Source: Streptomyces sp. SLBN-31
GTDB taxonomy: Bacteria > Actinomycetota > Actinomycetes > Streptomycetales > Streptomycetaceae
Direction of reading: 5' to 3'
DNA: 64,000 bases
Assembly (NCBI RefSeq): GCF_006715395.1
Contig: NZ_VFNC01000001.1
Location: 248,001-312,000 of the forward strand
In this document: positions 3,273-23,931 of the stretch, in pieces
Numbering within the stretch: the first letter of the stretch is position 1
Layout of the letters: the number at the start of each line of letters is the position of its first letter
Notes under the pieces: generated by a model
What the model saw: the letters and a program-made list of their open reading frames with translations, nothing else
The model's database searches: none
Told to the model about the DNA's origin: nothing
Made by a program: the position numbers and the translations under genes

Positions 3273-3283
3273 ACCCGGCCGGT

Positions 3284-11490: not shown

Positions 11491-12573
<1,083 letters not shown>

Positions 12574-12725: not shown

Positions 12726-13676
12726 ATGAACGGATGGGACGGACACAGCTCCGGTTCCGGGGCGGAGCACGAGCCGAGCGAGGAGAGAGGCCGGGCGGCC
12801 TGGTCCGACGGCGGGACGGGACAGGCGCCCCCGTGGGCCTCGGCCCAGACCCAGACGGGCGGGACGCTCCCGCCGCCCTGGGCGCCGCCTCCGCCGGACC
12901 CGGTGTACCCCGCGCCCCCCGCACCGCCGTACGGCGGTCACCCCACTCCGCCGTACACGCTGCCCCCCGCCCCGCCCCCGGCCCCCCGGTACCGGGTCGG
13001 CCGGATCGTCGGGGTCATCGCCCTGATCGTCGCGGTCGGCGCGGGGACCGGTGCCGGGACCTGGTACCTCGTGCGCGAGCACCGCACGGACACCGGAGCG
13101 CGCCCCGCGAGCGTCGGCTCCGCCGCCGCCACCTCCTCCGCCCCGACGCCTTCCGGCTCGCCCCCGCCGAGCACCCCGCCGCAGACACCGGCCGCGTCGG
13201 CCTCGCCGCTGGACTCGCCCTCCGCCGGCTACCGCCGCGCCGAGGACCCGGTCGGCTACTCGATCGACGTCCCCCAGGGCTGGGCCCGCCGCGAGAAGCA
13301 GGGCAAGCTCTCGCCGATCGTCTACTACGACGCCCCCGGCGATGGCCGCCAGCTGCAGATCTTCGAGGTCACCGAGTCCACGCCGTACGAGTCCCTCACC
13401 CTCGCCGAGTCCGACCCCGGCTACGGCTTCGCCGCGCAGCCCGGCTACCGGGTCGTCGAGCGCGACCACGGCGACACCTGGGCCGAGCTGTCGTACCGCT
13501 ACACCGACGCGGACAAGGGCGCCCGCCAGGTCATCGACCACCGCTTCGAGGCCCACGACGGCACCCTGTACGCGATCCGCGCCAGCGGCCCCGCAAGCCT
13601 GGACCCCGAGCGGGTGCGGGAACCCCTGAGGATGGCGGTGCGCTACTTCTGCCCGACGGGCACCGAGTGCACCTAG
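12726..13676 (+). CDS. Membrane-anchored protein with secreted C-terminal domain
   Basis: A 316-residue bitopic protein: a cytoplasmic Pro-rich N-terminus (1-90), one membrane helix (~92-112, IVGVIALIVAVGAGTGAG), an external Ser/Pro/Thr linker (~118-165), and a folded domain of ~145 residues beginning YSIDVPQGWARRE and ending YFCPTGTECT, whose two cysteines could pair. The external domain is clearly paralogous to that of the 19296-20570 protein (IAVPKGWTR..., WFCPPYTTC). ATG 12726 lies 5 bases after GGGGGGCG. No enzyme motif is visible. It ends one base from the stop of the converging MFS gene. Confidence 0.8.
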   Translation: MNGWDGHSSGSGAEHEPSEERGRAAWSDGGTGQAPPWASAQTQTGGTLPPPWAPPPPDPVYPAPPAPPYGGHPTPPYTLPPAPPPAPRYRVGRIVGVIALIVAVGAGTGAGTWYLVREHRTDTGARPASVGSAAATSSAPTPSGSPPPSTPPQTPAASASPLDSPSAGYRRAEDPVGYSIDVPQGWARREKQGKLSPIVYYDAPGDGRQLQIFEVTESTPYESLTLAESDPGYGFAAQPGYRVVERDHGDTWAELSYRYTDADKGARQVIDHRFEAHDGTLYAIRASGPASLDPERVREPLRMAVRYFCPTGTECT

Positions 13677-15170: not shown

Positions 15171-16124
15171 ATGCGTGTGACGCAATCAAGTGGTCTGGAT
15201 CTGAATCTGCTGGTCGCCCTGGAGGTTCTGCTGGAGGAGCAGAGCGTCGGCGGTGCCGCCCGGCGGCTGCATCTCTCGGAACCGGCGATGAGCCGCACCC
15301 TGGGCCGGATCCGCAAGGCGCTCGGCGATCCCGTGCTGGTGCGGGCCGGGCGCCAGATGGTGCCGACGCCGCGCGCGCTGGCCGTAAGGGCCGAGGTGAG
15401 CGCGGTGGTGGAGCGGGCGAGGGCGCTGTTCGCCCCGGACCGGGACGCGGACCTGCGGACCGTGCGCCGGACCCTGACGATCATCGGCCACGACTTCATC
15501 GCCGCGGCCTGCGGTCCGGCCCTCTTCGAACGCGCCGCGAGGGAAGCGCCCGGAGTCCGCGTCCGCTTCCTGGCCGAGAGCCATGTGGACATGCCGTTCC
15601 TGCGTGAGGGCACGGCCGACCTGGAGGTCGGGGTGCTGGACACGACCGCGCCCGAGGTGCACGTGGAGATGCTCCACGAGGACCGGATGGCGGGCGTCGT
15701 GCGGGCCGGACACCCGCTGCTGGAAGGGGAGTTGACGGCCGAGCGGTTCGCGACCGAGGCTGATCACCTCATCGTCTCGCGGCGCGGCAGGCTGCACGGG
15801 CCCGTCGACACCGCGCTCGCCGAACTCGGCCTGCGACGGCGGGTGGTGGGCGCCGTGGGGACGTTTCCCGCCTCGCTCTTCGTGCTGCGCGACACCGATC
15901 TGGTCGGGCTGATCAGCGGGTGGGGGTTCCCGCTTGCGGCGGCGCTCGATCTGGTGACCTTCGAGGTGCCGCTCCCGCTGCCGCCGCTGCCCCTGGGCAT
16001 GGCCTGGCATCCGCGGCACGACGCCGACCCCGCGCACGCGTGGCTGCGGCGGACACTGCGGGAGGTGCTGGTCGGGTGGTCGTCCGATGGGGCGGCGGGG
16101 CAGGGCCCGTCAGACGGGCCGTAG
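15171..16124 (+). CDS. LysR-family transcriptional regulator
   Basis: A 317-residue protein. The N-terminal winged helix-turn-helix is in residues ~8-70 (LLVALEVLLEEQSVGGAARR, then SEPAMSRTLGRIRKAL), followed by the linker and a periplasmic-binding-like effector domain (~95-300). It probably controls the divergent MFS pump and itself through the palindrome in the shared gap; the inducer is unknown. ATG 15171 has a plausible AAGGGA; a GTG at 15177 is the alternative. Its 3' end overlaps the 3' end of the convergent MarR-GNAT gene by 15 bases. Confidence 0.93.
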   Translation: MRVTQSSGLDLNLLVALEVLLEEQSVGGAARRLHLSEPAMSRTLGRIRKALGDPVLVRAGRQMVPTPRALAVRAEVSAVVERARALFAPDRDADLRTVRRTLTIIGHDFIAAACGPALFERAAREAPGVRVRFLAESHVDMPFLREGTADLEVGVLDTTAPEVHVEMLHEDRMAGVVRAGHPLLEGELTAERFATEADHLIVSRRGRLHGPVDTALAELGLRRRVVGAVGTFPASLFVLRDTDLVGLISGWGFPLAAALDLVTFEVPLPLPPLPLGMAWHPRHDADPAHAWLRRTLREVLVGWSSDGAAGQGPSDGP

Positions 16125-17024
16125 CCGCTTCTCGAACCAGTGGCTGGCGTAGACGTGGTCGAGGTACGCCGGGATCTCGCGGTAGCCCGCAGCCCGGTAC
16201 ATCGCCTGCGCCTCGGTGAGGCTCGCGTGCGTGTCGAGGCGTACGACGGTGTGGCCGCGGGCCGCCGCCTCGCCCTCCAGCGCCTCCAGGATCCGGCCGG
16301 CGAGGCCGAGGCGCCGGGCATCGGGGTGCACCCACACGTGCTTGATCTCGCCCACGCCCGACTCCAGGGTGCGCAGCGCCCCGCAGCCCACCGCCCGCCC
16401 CTCCTCGTATGCCACGAAGAACGCGCCGGCTGCCCCGGACACCTGCTCCGGCCGCACCAGGTCGGACTTGTCGAAGCCCTCCGGGAAGCGCGCGTCGATG
16501 TCGGCCGCGTAGGCGTCGAGGCAGGCGCGGGCGTCCGGGGAGGCGCCGTCGACGAGTTCGACGGTGATCGCGGCCAGCCGCAGCAGGCGCTGCGCGGTGG
16601 TCATGGCGTCGACCAGCCGGTCGCGCTGGGCGGGGGTGAGACGGTCCAGCAGGCCGGCCGCGAGGGCGTTGGCCCGGCGGTTCTGCTCCTTGACCTCCAG
16701 CCGCCCCGCGTCCGTCGGCTCGATCGTGCGCAGCCGGTTGTCCCGCGGGTCCACGCTGATCCGGACCATGCCCTCGGCCTGGAGCGCCTTGGTCATCCGG
16801 CTCAGGTACCCCGCGTCCAGACCGAGCCGGCTCCTGAGCTCGCGCAGGGACACTCCGCCCGGTGTCCCGGCGATCTCGAACAGCAGCCGGGCCTCGCCGA
16901 GCGGGCGGTCCTGGCCGAGGTAGTGGTCGTCCAGCGCGCCGATCCGGCGGGTGAAGTACCGGTTGAACCGGCGCAGAGCGGCGACCTGCTCCGACGGCAC
17001 CGGCTCCGTACGTCCTGGCTCCAT
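16110..17024 (-). CDS. MarR-type regulator fused to a GNAT acetyltransferase
   Basis: A 304-residue two-domain protein. Residues ~10-145 are a MarR winged helix (VSLRELRSRLGLDAGYLSRM, wing SVDPRDNRLRTIEPT). Residues ~150-302 are a GNAT fold with the acetyl-CoA loop region HPDARRLGLAGRILEALE and the late GNAT motif LYRAAGY-like MYRAAGYREI. Such fusions are common in actinobacteria; acetyltransferase activity could itself be the output, or acetyl-CoA could act as signal. ATG 17024 is preceded by AAAGG. A perfect inverted repeat abuts the start (17028-17045), strongly suggesting autoregulation. It is divergent from the 17163 locus. Confidence 0.92.
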   Translation of the reverse strand: MEPGRTEPVPSEQVAALRRFNRYFTRRIGALDDHYLGQDRPLGEARLLFEIAGTPGGVSLRELRSRLGLDAGYLSRMTKALQAEGMVRISVDPRDNRLRTIEPTDAGRLEVKEQNRRANALAAGLLDRLTPAQRDRLVDAMTTAQRLLRLAAITVELVDGASPDARACLDAYAADIDARFPEGFDKSDLVRPEQVSGAAGAFFVAYEEGRAVGCGALRTLESGVGEIKHVWVHPDARRLGLAGRILEALEGEAAARGHTVVRLDTHASLTEAQAMYRAAGYREIPAYLDHVYASHWFEKRLRPV

Positions 17025-17162: not shown

Positions 17163-18923
17163 GTGAGCACCGCGTACGTGCCGCAGCAACCACAGCCGAC
17201 GACGCCCACGGCGGTCCCGCCGGCACCACCCACTCCACCGCACGCCAGCGAGGCCACCCGGCTGCTGTGCGCGGGCACCTACCTCGATTCCGGTTACCGC
17301 GACCGCGTCATCGAGGAACTGCACCTCAACGAGCAGCGGATCGCGGCGCCCTCACTGGGCTTCGACGCCGCCCGCGTCCTCGCCCACGCGCTGCGCGCCC
17401 GGCGCCACGAACTGCTGTGGGCCGGGGCGATCGCCGGTCTGTGGCTGATCGGCACGGCCGTCGGCGGCATGCTGCTGTTCTTCTTCTGGCCGAGCGTCCT
17501 GCTCGCCCTCGCGCCGTGGATCAGGGGGCGCAGCGAACGCCCGTCGCGCTACCGCCGCGTCGCCGCCTTCCTGCTGCGCTGGTGGGGCCGGCTCTTCCTC
17601 ACGGGCCTGCTGGCCCTCACGGTCGTCGCCGCGTTCGGCGGCGGCTCCGACGACCGCCCCTCCTACGGCTCGTACGGCTCCGACTACGGCTACGGCTCCT
17701 CGGACTCGCCGAGCCTCACCGACGCCTTCTCGCCGAGCGACATCGCCGACGCGGTCGAGCCCTGGCAGGCCTGGCTCACGCTCGCCTTCCTCGCGCTCAT
17801 CGGCTGGTGCGTGTACGCCCAGCGCAACCAGTTCAGCCGCGCGCTGGCCGCCGAGCTGTCCCCGCAACGCTTCCCGGACGCCGCCGGCGATCCCGCCGAG
17901 CAGGCCGACAACCCGCGCTTCCAGCGGCTGAAGCAGCGCATCCGGCTGGAGCAGCACGCGCCGCTGGTCATGTACCACGAGGCGCGCCCGTTCTGCGGTG
18001 CGGGAGCGGCGTACGACACCTGGGTGCTGGCCGTGGAACTGCGGGCGGACGAGGAGCGCGAGGAGCAGCTGCCGCTGAGCAACCGCACGATCCTGGAGCG
18101 CATCCGCCCCCTGCTCGAACAGCTGCGGGTCCCGTCCGAGTACGCGGGCCCCGGCGTCCGCGACCGGCTGCGCTGGCTGGAGATCGACGAGTGCGTGTTC
18201 CTGCCCGTCGAGGGACTGCTCACCCGGGACCAGGCGCCGTACACCCCGCAGGCCTTCGAGGAGCACCGGGCCCGGGCCGTGGAGGAGGGCGCCGAGAAGC
18301 GGCGGCACTTCCTGCGCATCCGGGTCGGCGGCTGGGAGGAGGAGCTGGTCGTCACGGTGTTCGTGCGCATCCACACGCAGGGCCGGATGCTCATGCTGGA
18401 GATCGCGCCGCACGTGCTGACGCCGGTGCGCGCCGACTTCAAGGACGCCGACCGTACGGCGCACCGGTTCCGGAACAACAGCGCGCTGGGCAAGGCGGCC
18501 GGGGCGCTCGTGCTGGTGCCGGGGTCGGCGGGCCGCTCGCTGGGCCAGCTCGGCCGGGGCGCGGTCTACCTCTGGCGGCTGCTGACCGGCGGATACGCGG
18601 GCGCGCTGCCGGACGGACCTGCGGTGTCGGTGCGCGAGCTGGGCTCGACGCCGGCCGGATCGCTCTTCCAGGAGATGGACGTGGCCCGCTACCTGAGGAG
18701 CGTGCAGGACCGGGTGGCGAACGGGGTACGGGCCGCGCTCGCCGAATCCGGCTACGAGACCGGCGAGTTCGTCCAGAAGATCGTCAACATCAGCAACGGC
18801 GACGTGAACATCGGCCGCGTCGAGGGTTCCACCTTCGCGGTCGGCAGTCACGCGTCCGCCTCCTCCACCGTCACGGGCGGCGCGGCGCCGCAGCAGAAGG
18901 GAGCCGACAGCAATGGCCGGTAA
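17163..18923 (+). CDS. Four-TM protein with C-terminal amyloid-like signalling motif
   Basis: A 586-residue protein I cannot assign to a named family. A Pro-rich N-terminus (1-28) leads to a conserved-looking helical stretch (~30-80) and four hydrophobic helices (~85-119 as a hairpin, ~143-158, ~201-218) with a Gly/Tyr/Ser loop at ~165-182. A large cytoplasmic region (~220-540) contains a charged helical segment (~245-330) and a beta-rich part (RIRVGGWEEELVVTVFVRI). The last ~45 residues hold VNISNGDVNIGRVEGS then TFAVGSHASASS, nearly repeated at the N-terminus of the next protein. GTG 17163 follows GGGGGAG. It overlaps the next gene by 11 bases. Reading it as the sensor or platform of a two-protein signalling pair is inference. 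Confidence 0.75.
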   Translation: MSTAYVPQQPQPTTPTAVPPAPPTPPHASEATRLLCAGTYLDSGYRDRVIEELHLNEQRIAAPSLGFDAARVLAHALRARRHELLWAGAIAGLWLIGTAVGGMLLFFFWPSVLLALAPWIRGRSERPSRYRRVAAFLLRWWGRLFLTGLLALTVVAAFGGGSDDRPSYGSYGSDYGYGSSDSPSLTDAFSPSDIADAVEPWQAWLTLAFLALIGWCVYAQRNQFSRALAAELSPQRFPDAAGDPAEQADNPRFQRLKQRIRLEQHAPLVMYHEARPFCGAGAAYDTWVLAVELRADEEREEQLPLSNRTILERIRPLLEQLRVPSEYAGPGVRDRLRWLEIDECVFLPVEGLLTRDQAPYTPQAFEEHRARAVEEGAEKRRHFLRIRVGGWEEELVVTVFVRIHTQGRMLMLEIAPHVLTPVRADFKDADRTAHRFRNNSALGKAAGALVLVPGSAGRSLGQLGRGAVYLWRLLTGGYAGALPDGPAVSVRELGSTPAGSLFQEMDVARYLRSVQDRVANGVRAALAESGYETGEFVQKIVNISNGDVNIGRVEGSTFAVGSHASASSTVTGGAAPQQKGADSNGR

Positions 18924-19284
18924 CGAGCCGAGCGTCAACTTCGGCAACATCTCGGGCAACAACACCTTCGCCGTCGGCAGCCACGCGCACGCCGAGAGCC
19001 ACCATCACCACGGTGCCGACGCGGCTCCGCAGCTCGACAAGTCGACGCGACAACTCCTCGCGGCCGTACGGGAGTTGCGGGCCGACCTCGCCGAACGGGT
19101 GCGCGGCACCGACCAGACGGCCACCCTCGACGAGGCCCTCGCCGAGACGGAGTCGGAGATCACCAGCACCGGCCAGGCGGGCCGGACCCGCCGCGAACGC
19201 CTGCGCGAGCTGCTGTCCGACTCGCAGGCTCTGGTCACGTTCCTCGCCTCGGCCGGCGCCCTGGCCGGGCTGCTGGGGATGTGA
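18913..19284 (+). CDS. Small partner protein with N-terminal amyloid-like motif
   Basis: A 123-residue protein. Residues 8-28 carry VNFGNISGNNTFAVGSHAHA, matching the C-terminal motif of the upstream protein at V, N, G, G, T, F, A, V, G, S, H, A positions. A His cluster follows, then two predicted helices with coiled-coil character (~40-65 and ~70-100), and a final hydrophobic segment LVTFLASAGALAGLLGM reaching the C-terminus. It resembles small effector proteins that join a receptor through a short Gly/Asn motif and then act at the membrane. This is family-level analogy (bacterial amyloid signalling sequences), not proof. ATG 18913 lies inside the preceding gene; AAGGGAG is ~10 bases upstream. 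Confidence 0.75.
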   Translation: MAGNEPSVNFGNISGNNTFAVGSHAHAESHHHHGADAAPQLDKSTRQLLAAVRELRADLAERVRGTDQTATLDEALAETESEITSTGQAGRTRRERLRELLSDSQALVTFLASAGALAGLLGM

Positions 19285-19295
19285 GGAGTAAAGCC

Positions 19296-20570
19296 ATGAG
19301 CGGGGGACCGAGGTACTGGAACGAGGACACCCAGCGCTGGGAGGACGGCGGCCAGGAGAGCCCCTCGACGACCCGGTCGACTTCGCCGCCACCGGCGCGG
19401 CCACCGATCGCGCCGACGGCGCCCGGCACGGAGACGGCCGCGGAGGCGACGCCACCGGCACCCGCGTCCGGGGCGGACGAGGCCGGTGTGACCGGAGAGG
19501 CGGCCGCCGCCGAGTCCTCCGCCGGTGGCCGTGACGACGGAACCGAACCGGCGCCGCCCGTCGCGGGGCCGGGTGGCTGGCCCGTCGCCGGCGGAGAGAG
19601 CGTCTGGCACGGTCCGGCGGGCGCCGGCCACACCGTCGTGGACGGCGGGGGAGCCTCCCCTCCCGCGCAGTCCCGGCCGGCCGTTCCGGAGGGTGCGGCC
19701 TGGCCCCCGGTCCGGTCGACCGGCGCCGCCGGGTGGCCGCCCGCCGGCGACGACCTCTCCGCGCCGCCCGGCGCCCCCACCCCCTGGCCCGCGCCCGAGT
19801 GGTCCAGCGGCGCCTCCTGGCCTCCCGTCGAGCCGGTGACCGCTCCCGCCCCCTCCGGTGGGCTCAACCGGCGGCTCGTCTGGTCCGTCGTCGTGGGGGC
19901 CGCCGTCGTCGGTGTGGCCGTGAGTCTCGTGCTGACGCTGGTCGTCGGCAAGGGTGGCGACGACGGGAAGCAACCGGTCGCGGCCGGGTCGTCGTCGGCG
20001 CCGGTCTCCTCGCCGGAGCAGTCCCCGTCGCCGTACGCCGAAAGCAGCGCCTCGCCCTCGCCCTCCGTCTCCACGCCGCCCGACGGCTACGAACTCCGCG
20101 ACGACACCGAGGGCTTCCGGATCGCCGTGCCCAAGGGGTGGACGCGCAGCACCGTCCCCTCGCAGTACGGCATAGCCGTCGTCAACTACCGCAGCGCCGA
20201 CAAGGAACACCGCCTGCAGGTCTACCAGGTCCAGGAGGAGTCCCCGGACGCCTCCTTCAAGCTGTACCTGTCCGCTCAGACCCGTAAGCCGGCCGGCTTC
20301 GAGAAGCTCGACCTGCAGCGCCTCGACGACGGCGAGTTCACCGGCTCCCGCCTGGAGTACCTGGCGGGTTCGATCTCCGGCGAGCCCGACGTCGGCACCT
20401 GGCACGTCTACGACGAGCGCTTCGTCGCCGCCGACGGCAACATCTACGCCATCGCCTCCTACGGCCCCGACTCCGACGGCCACGACGACGAACTCGGCTA
20501 CCTCGCCACGGCGTTGGACTGGTTCTGTCCGCCGTACACCACCTGCGACGCCGACCCCGGCATCGACTAG
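19296..20570 (+). CDS. Membrane-anchored protein with secreted C-terminal domain (paralogue)
   Basis: A 424-residue bitopic protein. The opening MSGGPRYWNEDTQRWEDGG is a Trp-rich motif I associate with Streptomyces membrane proteins. A disordered Pro/Ala/Gly/Trp region (~25-190) with repeated W-P-P elements follows, then a membrane helix (~195-217, VVVGAAVVGVAVSLVLTLVV), a Ser/Pro linker, and an external domain of ~155 residues (FRIAVPKGWTR... to WFCPPYTTC) paralogous to the 12726-13676 protein. ATG 19296 was chosen because GAGGAG lies 7 bases upstream; an in-frame GTG at 19281 overlaps the previous gene. It is third in the 17163 locus and probably co-transcribed. Role unknown. Confidence 0.8.
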   Translation: MSGGPRYWNEDTQRWEDGGQESPSTTRSTSPPPARPPIAPTAPGTETAAEATPPAPASGADEAGVTGEAAAAESSAGGRDDGTEPAPPVAGPGGWPVAGGESVWHGPAGAGHTVVDGGGASPPAQSRPAVPEGAAWPPVRSTGAAGWPPAGDDLSAPPGAPTPWPAPEWSSGASWPPVEPVTAPAPSGGLNRRLVWSVVVGAAVVGVAVSLVLTLVVGKGGDDGKQPVAAGSSSAPVSSPEQSPSPYAESSASPSPSVSTPPDGYELRDDTEGFRIAVPKGWTRSTVPSQYGIAVVNYRSADKEHRLQVYQVQEESPDASFKLYLSAQTRKPAGFEKLDLQRLDDGEFTGSRLEYLAGSISGEPDVGTWHVYDERFVAADGNIYAIASYGPDSDGHDDELGYLATALDWFCPPYTTCDADPGID

Positions 20571-20816: not shown

Positions 20817-22346
20817 ATGTCGGACCGAGCAGAAGCCCTGGAGCTCGACGCGCAGGCGACCATCCACGTGGCAGGGGAGTGGCGGGAAGCCGTCTCCGGC
20901 GCCACGCGCGAGATCCTCGACCCCGCCGACGGCCAGGCCTTCGCTCTGGTCGCGGAGGGCGACGAGAAGGACACGGACCTGGCGGTCGCGGCCGCCCGCC
21001 GGGCCTTCGACGAAGGAGACTGGCCGCGCACCCCCGCCGCCGACCGCGCCGCTGTGCTGCGTCGCGTCGCGGACCTGCTGATACGCGACCGCGAACGTCT
21101 CGGCCGGCTGGAGAGCCGTGACGCCGGCAAGACCGTGGAGGAGGGTCGCATCGACATCGACTGTGTCGCCGACGCCTTCCGCTACTTCGCCGACCTGGTC
21201 GCGGCCGAGGCACCCGGACGCGTCGTCGACGCGGGCTCGGCCGACGTCCACAGCGTCGTCGTCCACGAGCCCGTGGGGGTCTGTGCGCTGATCACCCCCT
21301 GGAACTACCCGCTCCTTCAGGCGAGTTGGAAGATCGCCCCGGCGCTCGCGGCCGGCAACACCTTCGTCGTGAAGCCGAGCGAGATCACCCCCCTCACCAC
21401 GATCGCCCTCATCGACCTGCTCGCCGAGGCCGGGCTGCCCGCCGGTGTCGCCGGCATCGTCACCGGTCCCGGCCACTCGGTCGGCGCCCGGCTCGCCGAG
21501 CACCCCGACGTCGACCTGGTGTCCTTCACCGGCGGACTGGTCAGCGGCACCAAGGTCGCCCAGGCCGCCGCGCCCACCGTCAAGAAGGTCGCCCTCGAAC
21601 TCGGCGGCAAGAACCCCAACGTCGTCTTCGCCGACGCCTGCGCGAGCGAGGAGGGTTTCGACACCGCCGTCGACCAGGCCCTCAACGCGGCGTTCATCCA
21701 CAGCGGCCAGGTCTGCTCGGCGGGCGGCCGGCTGATCGTCGAGGAGTCCCTGCGCGAGCGCTTCGTCGCCGAACTCGCCCGCCGCGCCGCGAAGATCCGC
21801 CTCGGCCGCGGCACCGAGGACGGCGTCGAGTGCGGACCGCTCGTCTCCGAGCAGCAGCGCGCCAAGGTCGAGGACTACGTCGCCTCCGCGCTCGCGGAGG
21901 GCGCCGTGCTGCGGACCGGCGGCAAGCGCCCCGAGCCGACCCCGGCCCGCCCCGCCGGCGGCTACTTCTACGAGCCGACCGTCCTCGACCAGTGCCACCG
22001 CGAGATGCGGGTCGTACGCGAGGAGGTCTTCGGGCCGGTGCTGACGGTGGAGACCTTCCGCACCGAGGACGAGGCCGTCGCCCTCGCCAACGACACCGAG
22101 TACGGACTCGCCGGCGCCGTCTGGACCGCCGACGCAGGACGCGCCCGCCGCGTCGCCGGCCGGCTGCGCCACGGCACCGTCTGGATCAACGACTTCCACC
22201 CCTACCTCCCCCAGGCGGAGTGGGGCGGCTTCGGCAAGAGCGGAGTGGGCCGCGAACTCGGCCCCGCCGGCCTTGCCGAGTACCGCGAGACCAAGCACGT
22301 CTACCAGAACCTGGCGCCGAAGCCGGTGCGCTGGTTCGCGGGCTGA
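20817..22346 (+). CDS. betB: Betaine-aldehyde dehydrogenase
   Basis: NAD(P)-dependent aldehyde dehydrogenase, most likely oxidising betaine aldehyde to glycine betaine. 509 residues. TPWNYPLLQASWKIAPALAA and NTFVVKPSEITP line the cofactor site, ELGGKNPNVVF holds the general-base Glu, and HSGQVCSAGGRL the catalytic Cys. The usual FTGS is FTGG here. Substrate is inferred from context: the next genes are a choline-dehydrogenase-like oxidase and a complete glycine betaine/choline ABC importer. ATG 20817 has GGAAGG about 11 bases upstream, rather long. First gene of a five-gene operon; the ~245-base upstream gap holds its promoter but I see no clear boxes. Confidence 0.92.
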   Translation: MSDRAEALELDAQATIHVAGEWREAVSGATREILDPADGQAFALVAEGDEKDTDLAVAAARRAFDEGDWPRTPAADRAAVLRRVADLLIRDRERLGRLESRDAGKTVEEGRIDIDCVADAFRYFADLVAAEAPGRVVDAGSADVHSVVVHEPVGVCALITPWNYPLLQASWKIAPALAAGNTFVVKPSEITPLTTIALIDLLAEAGLPAGVAGIVTGPGHSVGARLAEHPDVDLVSFTGGLVSGTKVAQAAAPTVKKVALELGGKNPNVVFADACASEEGFDTAVDQALNAAFIHSGQVCSAGGRLIVEESLRERFVAELARRAAKIRLGRGTEDGVECGPLVSEQQRAKVEDYVASALAEGAVLRTGGKRPEPTPARPAGGYFYEPTVLDQCHREMRVVREEVFGPVLTVETFRTEDEAVALANDTEYGLAGAVWTADAGRARRVAGRLRHGTVWINDFHPYLPQAEWGGFGKSGVGRELGPAGLAEYRETKHVYQNLAPKPVRWFAG

Positions 22347-22401
22347 CACCGGCCCGCGATCCCGCCCCCGACCGACCACTGGCCCCCCTGGAGCAACCCC
22401 C

Positions 22402-23930
22402 ATGCCCGAGAACCACCACACCTACGACTACGTCGTCATCGGCGGCGGTACGGCGGGCTCCGTCATCGCCTCCCGCCTCACCGAGAACCCCGACATCACC
22501 GTCGCCGTCATCGAGGGCGGCCCCAACGACGTCGGCCGCGAGGACGTGCTGACGCTGCGCCGCTGGATGGGCCTGCTCGGCGGCGAACTCGACTACGACT
22601 ACCCGACCACCGAGCAGCCCCGCGGCAACTCGCACATCCGGCACAGCCGCGCCCGCGTCCTGGGCGGCTGCTCGTCCCACAACACGCTCATCGCCTTCAA
22701 GCCGCTGCCCTCCGACTGGGAGGAGTGGGAGCAGGCGGGCGCCAAGGGCTGGGGCCCGGTGCAGATGGAGGCGTACTACGCGCGGCTGAAGAACAACATC
22801 GTCCCGGTCGACGAGAAGGACCGCAACGCCATCGCCCGCGACTTCGTCGACGCGGCGCAGAAGGCGCTCGGCGTCCCCCGCGTCGAGGGCTTCAACACCA
22901 AGCCCTTCGACGACGGCGCCGGCTTCTTCGACCTCGCCTACCACCCCGAGAACAACAAGCGGTCGTCCGCGTCGGTGGCGTATCTGCACCCGGTGATGGA
23001 CGAGCGCCCCAACCTGACGCTTTTGCTGGAGACCTGGGCCCACCGGCTGAAGCTGGACGGCACCCGCGCCGAGGGCGTGCACGTGCGCACCAAGGACGGC
23101 GAGGACCTGCTCATACGTGCCCGCCGCGAGGTCGTCCTGTGCGCCGGCGCCGTGGACTCCCCGCGGCTGCTGCTGCACTCCGGCATCGGCCCCCGCGCCG
23201 ACCTGGAGGCGCTCGGCATCCCCGTCGCGCACGACCTGCCGGGCGTCGGCGAGAACCTGCTCGACCACCCGGAGTCGGTGATCGTCTGGGAGACCGACGG
23301 CCCGATCCCGGAGAACTCCGCGATGGACAGCGACGCCGGACTGTTCGTGCGCCGCGACCCCGACCACGCGGGCCCGGACCTGATGTTCCACTTCTACCAG
23401 GTCCCCTTCACCGACAACCCGGAGCGACTGGGCTACGAGAAGCCTGACTTCGGCGTCTCGATGACCCCGAACATCCCCAAGCCCAAGAGCCGCGGCCGGC
23501 TGTACCTGACCAGCGCGGACCCGTCGGTCAAGCCGGCCCTGGACTTCCGCTACTTCACGGACGAGGACGACTACGACGCCCGGACGCTGGTCGACGGCAT
23601 CCGCATCGCCCGTGAGATCGCGCGCACCGAGCCGCTGGCCGGCTGGCTCAGGCGCGAGGTCTGCCCGGGCCCGGAGGTGACCGGCGACGAGGAGCTCAGC
23701 GAGTACGCCCGCAAGGTCGCGCACACCGTGTACCACCCCGCGGGCACCTGCAAGATGGGCGCGGCCGACGACGAAATGACCGTTGTAGACCCGGAGTTGA
23801 GGATTCGAGGCCTGGACGGCATCCGTATCGCGGACGCCTCGGTCTTCCCGACGATGACCGCGGTGAACCCGATGATCGGGGTCCTCATGGTCGGGGAGAG
23901 GGCCGTCGATTTGATCGGAGGCGGTGCGTG

Positions 23931-23931
<1 letters not shown>
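22402..23931 (+). CDS. betA: GMC-family choline dehydrogenase
   Basis: FAD flavoprotein of the glucose-methanol-choline family, probably oxidising choline to betaine aldehyde. 509 residues. The N-terminal FAD loop is [22 protein letters not shown] signature 1 is seen as [17 protein letters not shown] and signature 2 as [16 protein letters not shown]. The C-terminal His-Asn catalytic pair fits [11 protein letters not shown] and [19 protein letters not shown] 22402 is preceded by GGAG; a longer in-frame start overlaps betB and is not needed. It overlaps the ABC ATPase gene by one base (TGATG), so it is translationally coupled. Choline specificity rests on operon context. Confidence 0.9.

Follow-up and report, generated by a model that had tools for sequence, protein, structure and literature searches.

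Why should a membrane protein end in the same short motif with which the small protein encoded directly behind it begins, and does this motif join the two proteins? The question was raised by two adjacent genes in the window (the whole stretch of 64,000 nucleotides from Streptomyces sp. SLBN-31 that was analysed). Alignment of VNIGRVEGS-TFAVGSHASASS at the end of the receptor with VNFGNISGNNTFAVGSHAHAES at the start of the small protein gave 14 identical positions, as reported in the preliminary description of this DNA, and the two open reading frames overlapped by 11 bases. There is good support for a homotypic coupling between a membrane receptor and a partner that can be exchanged; in the loci compared, the tags were paired, conserved and diverged together, the partners were exchanged and the gene order was maintained. 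The features of the pair were as follows.

17163..18923, + strand: receptor gene, 586 aa, GTG start, three clear and probably a fourth membrane segment, no Pfam domain
17244..17408, + strand: receptor N-terminal conserved region, residues 28-82, in which the share of the commonest residue averages 0.96
17412..17819, + strand: receptor membrane region, residues 84-219, from hydropathy
17820..18767, + strand: receptor C-terminal soluble domain, residues 220-535, conserved, predicted to be cytoplasmic, no solved relative by sequence
18804..18866, + strand: receptor C-terminal motif VNIGRVEGSTFAVGSHASASS, residues 548-568, from motif alignments, shuffles and conservation
18913..19284, + strand: small partner gene, 123 aa, ATG start, 11-base overlap with the end of the receptor gene
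18934..18999, + strand: small-protein N-terminal motif VNFGNISGNNTFAVGSHAHAES, residues 8-29, from alignment, homologues and conservation
19045..19224, + strand: small-protein charged core, residues 45-104, putatively helical from its pattern, distantly like DUF5955-type partners
19225..19281, + strand: small-protein C-terminal hydrophobic segment, residues 105-123, from hydropathy and conservation

Hydropathy analysis of the receptor revealed three clear membrane windows, the first at residues 90-108 and the others at the segments 144-162 and 201-219. The first window lay within a hydrophobic stretch of about 35 residues (about 86-120). Four segments are likely because this stretch is long enough for a hairpin and can plausibly be read as two segments; of the four-TM receptor proposed earlier, three segments were therefore clear and the fourth was plausible, although not proven. 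The loop at residues 121-143 was basic and the loop at residues 163-200 was acidic and rich in Ser, Tyr and Gly, a charge pattern that predicts the former inside and the latter outside. From these charges and the segment that follows, the C-terminal domain and the tag would lie on the cytoplasmic side whatever the number of segments. Neither the receptor nor the small protein of the window had a credible match to a Pfam, NCBIfam or PADLOC family. An NTPase domain was not recognised by Pfam in the window receptor, nor in 22 diverse family members at E 0.01, in agreement with the earlier account of the receptor. Searches by sequence for solved relatives of the receptor, the small protein, the TIR partner and the third gene (the last two are described below) gave none that was credible, and 2lf0 (E 0.013) and similar weak structure matches were taken as coil matches.

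The hydrophobic end that had been noted in the small protein was located by hydropathy at residues 105-123, and its core at residues 45-104 is read as helical from the residue pattern. Homologues of the small protein at E 0.001 or better numbered 199 among 527 candidates. In a Pfam scan, the small protein of the window had no match to DUF5955 (PF19380), which 2 of 48 close homologues matched at a best E of 0.0077, whereas distant small partners belonged to this family (locus L070, E 4.3e-15; L072, E 4.2e-8). A profile made from nine distant partners, with the motif columns kept in, aligned with the small-protein family of the window. A literature search for the word DUF5955 found no paper.

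The tail of the receptor was aligned with the head of the partner in 73 of the 90 loci L031-L120. Six duplicates and the five loci without a receptor match (L061, L063, L064, L065 and L079) were left out, and six more were removed by hand: L066 and L067, which had no partner, L080 at a contig end, L107 with its tail in the wrong frame, and the distant receptors L119 and L120; in 13 of the 73 the partner was named after inspection of the gene behind the receptor. This set overlaps with the 80 named loci and the 48 wider loci used below. Own pairs scored 72.1 on average, against 27.9 with shuffled heads, and were above all 200 shuffles in 67 of the 73 loci; the local alignment score of the window pair was 68. 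A profile of the small proteins matched the receptor ORF of the window at E 2.1e-5, and the aligned part was the receptor tail. Chance or low-complexity similarity of the tags was ruled out by the shuffles and by the permutations given next.

When the receptors were grouped into 25 clades (receptor bodies less than 60% identical), own pairs scored 69.4 and unmatched pairs 33.9, and none of 20000 permutations was as high. The own partner ranked first for 14 of the 25 receptors and for 13 of the 25 partners; among six very distant representatives it was first in 6/6 and 5/6, and the observed mean was reached by 41 of 20000 permutations. Because the tails resembled their own partner above others, the tags are not mere old duplicates that diverged separately. 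The own combination outscored the swapped one in 1179/1181, 850/874, 424/454 and 90/106 locus pairs with rising likeness of the receptor bodies, and in only 3 of the 12 pairs of the closest loci (body identity 0.80-0.98), which is as expected if the tags there are the same and gives no support either. The similarity of receptor tags was correlated with that of partner tags (r 0.81), and a correlation of r 0.63 was left when receptor-body identity was removed, with 0 of 2000 permutations as high. Co-variation of the motifs had been suggested as a check in the preliminary description, and both the clades and the corrected correlation showed that they change together. Small length differences were common to both tags of a pair, for example, by eye, in the TIR-type loci L073 and L078.

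The wider search of the class found a receptor match in 70 of 394 genomes, 40 of them Streptomyces. The class and order searches together gave 48 loci, some of them seen before, many from Streptomyces and 18 from other families, and the partner was taken as the best-scoring of several downstream frames. This frame matched the tail above all 100 shuffles in 45 of the 48 loci, including 16 of the 18 from other families; the misses were L238, L241 and L249, the last with what looks by eye like a match. Distant receptors from Streptomyces and other actinobacterial families carried quite different tags, and the gene behind them still began with a matching one; its product was a small protein of helical appearance, a TIR protein or an EAD1 adaptor. 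Nine distant receptors (L073, L075, L077, L078 and L111-L115) had Asn-rich tails, and behind each was a protein that started with the same Asn-rich tag and continued with TIR-type sequence. PF10137 was present in all four of the nine that were scanned (L113, L078, L077 and L115, E 1e-25 to 7.5e-28), and the partners of L265 and L266, in other families, were further TIR proteins with PF10137, all six scanned partners being above the gathering score. Eight further TIR partners (L073, L075, L111, L112, L114, L260, L262 and L263) were recognised by the VFVVHGRD signature only. The partners of L253 and L232, likewise outside the family of Streptomyces, were EAD1 proteins (PF19955, above the gathering score, E 4.6e-12 and 1e-13), and those of L239 and L240 were DUF5955-like, below the gathering score. 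A tag that remains matched while the partner is exchanged is as expected of a homotypic signalling motif. As separate observations, the TIR partner at 956-1693 of L113 matched the PADLOC phage-defence candidate model PDC-S35 (E 5e-15), and the partner at 906-1538 of L247 apparently had two copies of the tag before its helical core, as judged by eye.

Bacterial amyloid signalling has been described for NLR-type sensors, and the source study of the BASS and NLR-Bell signalosomes is reportedly that of Dyrka et al. 2020 in J Mol Biol. Pfam includes a RHIM-type profile, and neither this nor any other signalling-motif profile was among the Pfam matches of the receptor or the small protein up to E 1, in scans of a kind that can overlook short motifs. 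According to PMC7889193, bacterial amyloid signalosomes are two-gene pairs with the motif at the N-terminus of the NLR and at the C-terminus of the Bell protein, with TIR and CHAT as rarer effectors; BASS and NLR-Bell signalosomes are also described in PMC8086366. The pairs studied here share with them the adjacent or overlapping genes with a common short motif, the small partner with a hydrophobic segment (C-terminal here, from hydropathy), TIR as an alternative effector and the occurrence in filamentous actinobacteria. They differ in the receptor, which is a membrane protein and has no recognised NTPase domain, and in the place of the motif, which is at the C-terminus of the receptor and the N-terminus of the partner. 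The layout ascribed to known BASS systems in the preliminary description, with the matching motif at the start of the effector, was thus mistaken, since the published motif (PMC7889193) occupies the effector C-terminus and the NLR N-terminus and is reversed here. The motif was also not significantly BASS3-like: against one printed peptide, the verified Frankia BASS3 peptide, 2 of 242 ends, overlapping loci included, had a shuffle fraction of 0.01 or less and 24 of 242 had 0.05 or less. Because most ends aligned no better than shuffles, membership in BASS3 by sequence was not supported and is not claimed. The system is not a BASS system by definition, since the receptor has no recognised NTPase domain and the layout is reversed; by analogy, receptor and partner appear to work like one.

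In the motif cores Gly, Asn and Ser were abundant and Leu and Arg scarce (G 0.19 versus 0.09 in the comparison composition, N 0.069 versus 0.011 and L 0.008 versus 0.126), a composition that fits amyloid signalling motifs. RHIM and fungal amyloid signalling motifs, the GDQN pattern included, are described in PMC12261475 and PMC7885112. In some clades the tags had a similar hydrophobic-x-hydrophobic-G-D-x-N core, as seen by eye in AVGIGDHNTI with AFAIGDHNTV, but the central Gln of the RHIM/PP core was replaced by small residues and no profile match was reported. EAD1 is a homotypic adaptor that brings effectors to conflict systems of multicellular bacteria, as stated in PMC7159879. The homotypic coupling to exchangeable effectors is the same here, and EAD1 itself was the partner in two loci, whereas coupling is through a short tag instead of a folded domain, and the receptor lies in the membrane. 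The six scanned TIR partners matched the CAP12/PCTIR TIR effectors (PF10137) but differed from them in carrying an N-terminal tag matched to the receptor. In the literature searched, which lacked most subscription papers and all bioRxiv preprints and included PMC8195603, PMC9815663, PMC12881547 and PMC10907252, a membrane receptor that bears a C-terminal motif of this kind was not found described; the absence is therefore weak.

The explanation that we favour as a whole, and consider probable, is the coupling of receptor and partner by a homotypic motif, probably of the amyloid type, with exchangeable partners. From the tag sequences we infer that the assembly is likely to be amyloid (cross-beta). 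The main competitor keeps the homotypic contact and makes it permanent: a beta-type contact would hold a stable membrane complex, with no nucleated polymer. The genetics demand specific matching and not amyloid, and the similarity to the BASS3 peptide was not significant, as this competitor would have it; however, the composition resembles that of amyloid signalling motifs, and the exchange to TIR and EAD1 copies the logic of amyloid signalosomes, which leaves it a minority prospect of some weight.

Conservation of the motifs among orthologues, on which the preliminary description had made its reading depend, was observed for both, each being above the neighbouring linker or tail. In close homologues, the share of the commonest residue was 0.76 in the small-protein motif versus 0.51 in the linker behind it, and 0.80 in the receptor motif versus 0.62 in the tail behind it; the folded regions of the receptor were more conserved than its motif (0.96 and 0.87 versus 0.80). 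Among 147 genomes of the order, 60 had a small-protein match and 145 a receptor-like match, the latter count including a weak paralogue without a tag or matching partner. Such a tagless Streptomyces paralogue with no matching partner was seen in nine loci (L122, L132, L133, L138 and L140-L144). When all 63 small-protein matches were compared with 77 of the receptor matches listed, 57 of the 63 followed a receptor match on their own strand at a distance of no more than 309 bp. In genome G047, where the small-protein match was not adjacent, both genes were at contig ends; in G104 (L062), where the receptor was a second one, about 1.4 kb separated the open frames; and G048 and G073 (L061 and L065) and, by similarity, G069 (L064) had relatives of the helical core without motif or receptor. 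The adjoining downstream gene, which is uncharacterised, was the same in L061 and L065. The contrary case named in advance, a small protein that has the motif but no receptor, was seen once, in G080 (L063), as an apparent remnant behind mdh in what looks like a decayed locus.

The named loci were the best 80 of 352 confirmed loci, 79 titled Streptomyces and one Actinobacteria bacterium. The small gene followed the receptor in 79 of these best 80, and the tags were above all 200 shuffles in all 79 named pairs; with the 57 of 63 adjacent matches above, adjacency of the two genes, whose co-occurrence had been named as a check, was near-constant. The sole exception among the named loci was L224 (S. 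griseus NCTC13033), which kept the receptor tag and had no detected partner, as did L241 by eye. Two main-family receptors in the 147 genomes had no small partner (L066 and L067); the tag was absent from L066, and L067 had at most a remnant of it. These loci bear on an antitoxin-like reading, in which the receptor is an inhibitor whose tail would keep the partner inactive at the membrane and release would be the signal. The tight adjacency and overlap of the genes and the loss or near loss of the tag in the partnerless L066 and L067 agree with it, but in L224 and L241 the receptor is retained with no partner detected, L063 may be a remnant of the partner that survives with no receptor, and like-with-like tags suggest co-assembly over inhibitor docking. 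We regard this reading as improbable.

A third gene lay behind the pair.

19296..20570, + strand: third gene, 424 aa, Pro-rich N-terminus, one membrane segment at residues 198-216, C-terminal T7SS_Rv3446c-like domain

The match of its C-terminal domain to T7SS_Rv3446c was below threshold, and its N-terminus contained a Trp motif. The third gene was directly behind the pair in 74 of the 79 named pairs (from the best 80 of 352 loci), and its family had no member within the 4 to 5 kb retrieved at each of the nine TIR-type loci. A protein of similar layout was encoded at 12726-13676 of the window, adjoining mdh; since one ORF was matched by both queries in L196 and L209, the two proteins may be paralogues. 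The cluster was often framed by mdh (window 11584-12573) and betaine genes (20817-23931). Among the 63 named loci with both flanks, mdh was matched in 53 and BADH in 43, and in the 20 loci listed mdh was before and BADH behind wherever found, with L196, where the mdh match was odd, as the exception. Also near mdh were receptors from several clades with very different tags. The main family occupies a recurrent chromosomal neighbourhood and not an obvious defence island. A MarR-type regulator fused to a GNAT acetyltransferase was encoded at 16110-17024 of the window, divergent from the receptor gene.

The presence of the third gene directly behind 74 of 79 pairs would suit the idea that a common third protein, such as a protease or chaperone, recognises both tags and that each tag follows that protein. 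However, the tags still match in the nine TIR-type loci that had no member of the third family in the 4 to 5 kb. When the own genome was scanned with a single degenerate coding pattern of the motif core, six matches appeared, the same count as the reversed control; two of the six were the two tag sites and the other four were in unrelated contexts, and a third motif-bearing protein was not seen with this pattern. The idea is accordingly very improbable.

Of 1149 identical aligned tag residues, 749 (65%) shared their codon, versus 57% expected from codon usage and 61% within receptor bodies as a control, and most loci shared codons at about the expected rate. Because the excess was only modest, pure DNA copying was rejected as a general cause of the matching, and selection on the protein would explain most of it, the tags probably being coupled mainly at the protein level. 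In L034 (receptor ORF ending at 3276), 16 of 16 shared motif residues were in identical codons, which suggests recent local DNA copying of the tag. Most tag codons were also common to both genes in a few TIR-type loci, and local copying is likely in a few loci. That the matching is nothing but a functionless by-product of repeated short copying from the 3' end of one gene to the 5' end of the next is scarcely credible, since the modest excess and the few loci that share nearly all codons, such as L034, stand against the roughly expected sharing in most loci and against motifs more conserved than the adjoining linker or tail.

The favoured coupling by a homotypic, probably amyloid-type motif would proceed as follows. 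A membrane-anchored receptor and a dedicated partner would be joined via a homotypic motif of about 20 residues. The receptor would be triggered, possibly at the envelope and possibly with the help of the third, single-pass membrane protein. Its cytoplasmic C-terminal motifs would then cluster, and on them the partner would assemble by its matching N-terminal motifs through nucleation, the product probably being a small cross-beta stack of the amyloid type. Stacking would gather the helical domain of the partner at the membrane. Receptors of this kind in relatives would gather a TIR-domain protein or an EAD1 adaptor instead, and the likely output would therefore be a death or dormancy response. 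We likewise infer that the clustering of the receptor motifs may be induced and that the output is likely to be lethal or growth-arresting.

Motif-coupled pairs with Bell, TIR or CHAT effectors have already been published (PMC7889193). What is new is a genuine and widespread motif-coupled receptor/effector signalling with a membrane receptor and a reversed layout. Our judgement is evenly balanced on the broader proposal that Actinobacteria may possess NTPase-free membrane receptors as a large class, whose members would reach their effectors through amyloid tags that are short, hyper-diverse and insulated from one another, in the manner of a bar code. Receptor and effector would change the tag jointly, and pore-like helical proteins, TIR enzymes and EAD adaptors would join as new effectors by taking it on. 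If the favoured explanation is true, the amyloid principle would extend to membrane receptors without a recognised NTPase domain, both in Streptomyces, where the gene cluster is common, and in further families of actinobacteria. Natural motif pairs are numerous and range from close to very distant, a ready set for studying the specificity of 20-residue tags, and the TIR and EAD1 versions tie unannotated genes to known cell-death modules.
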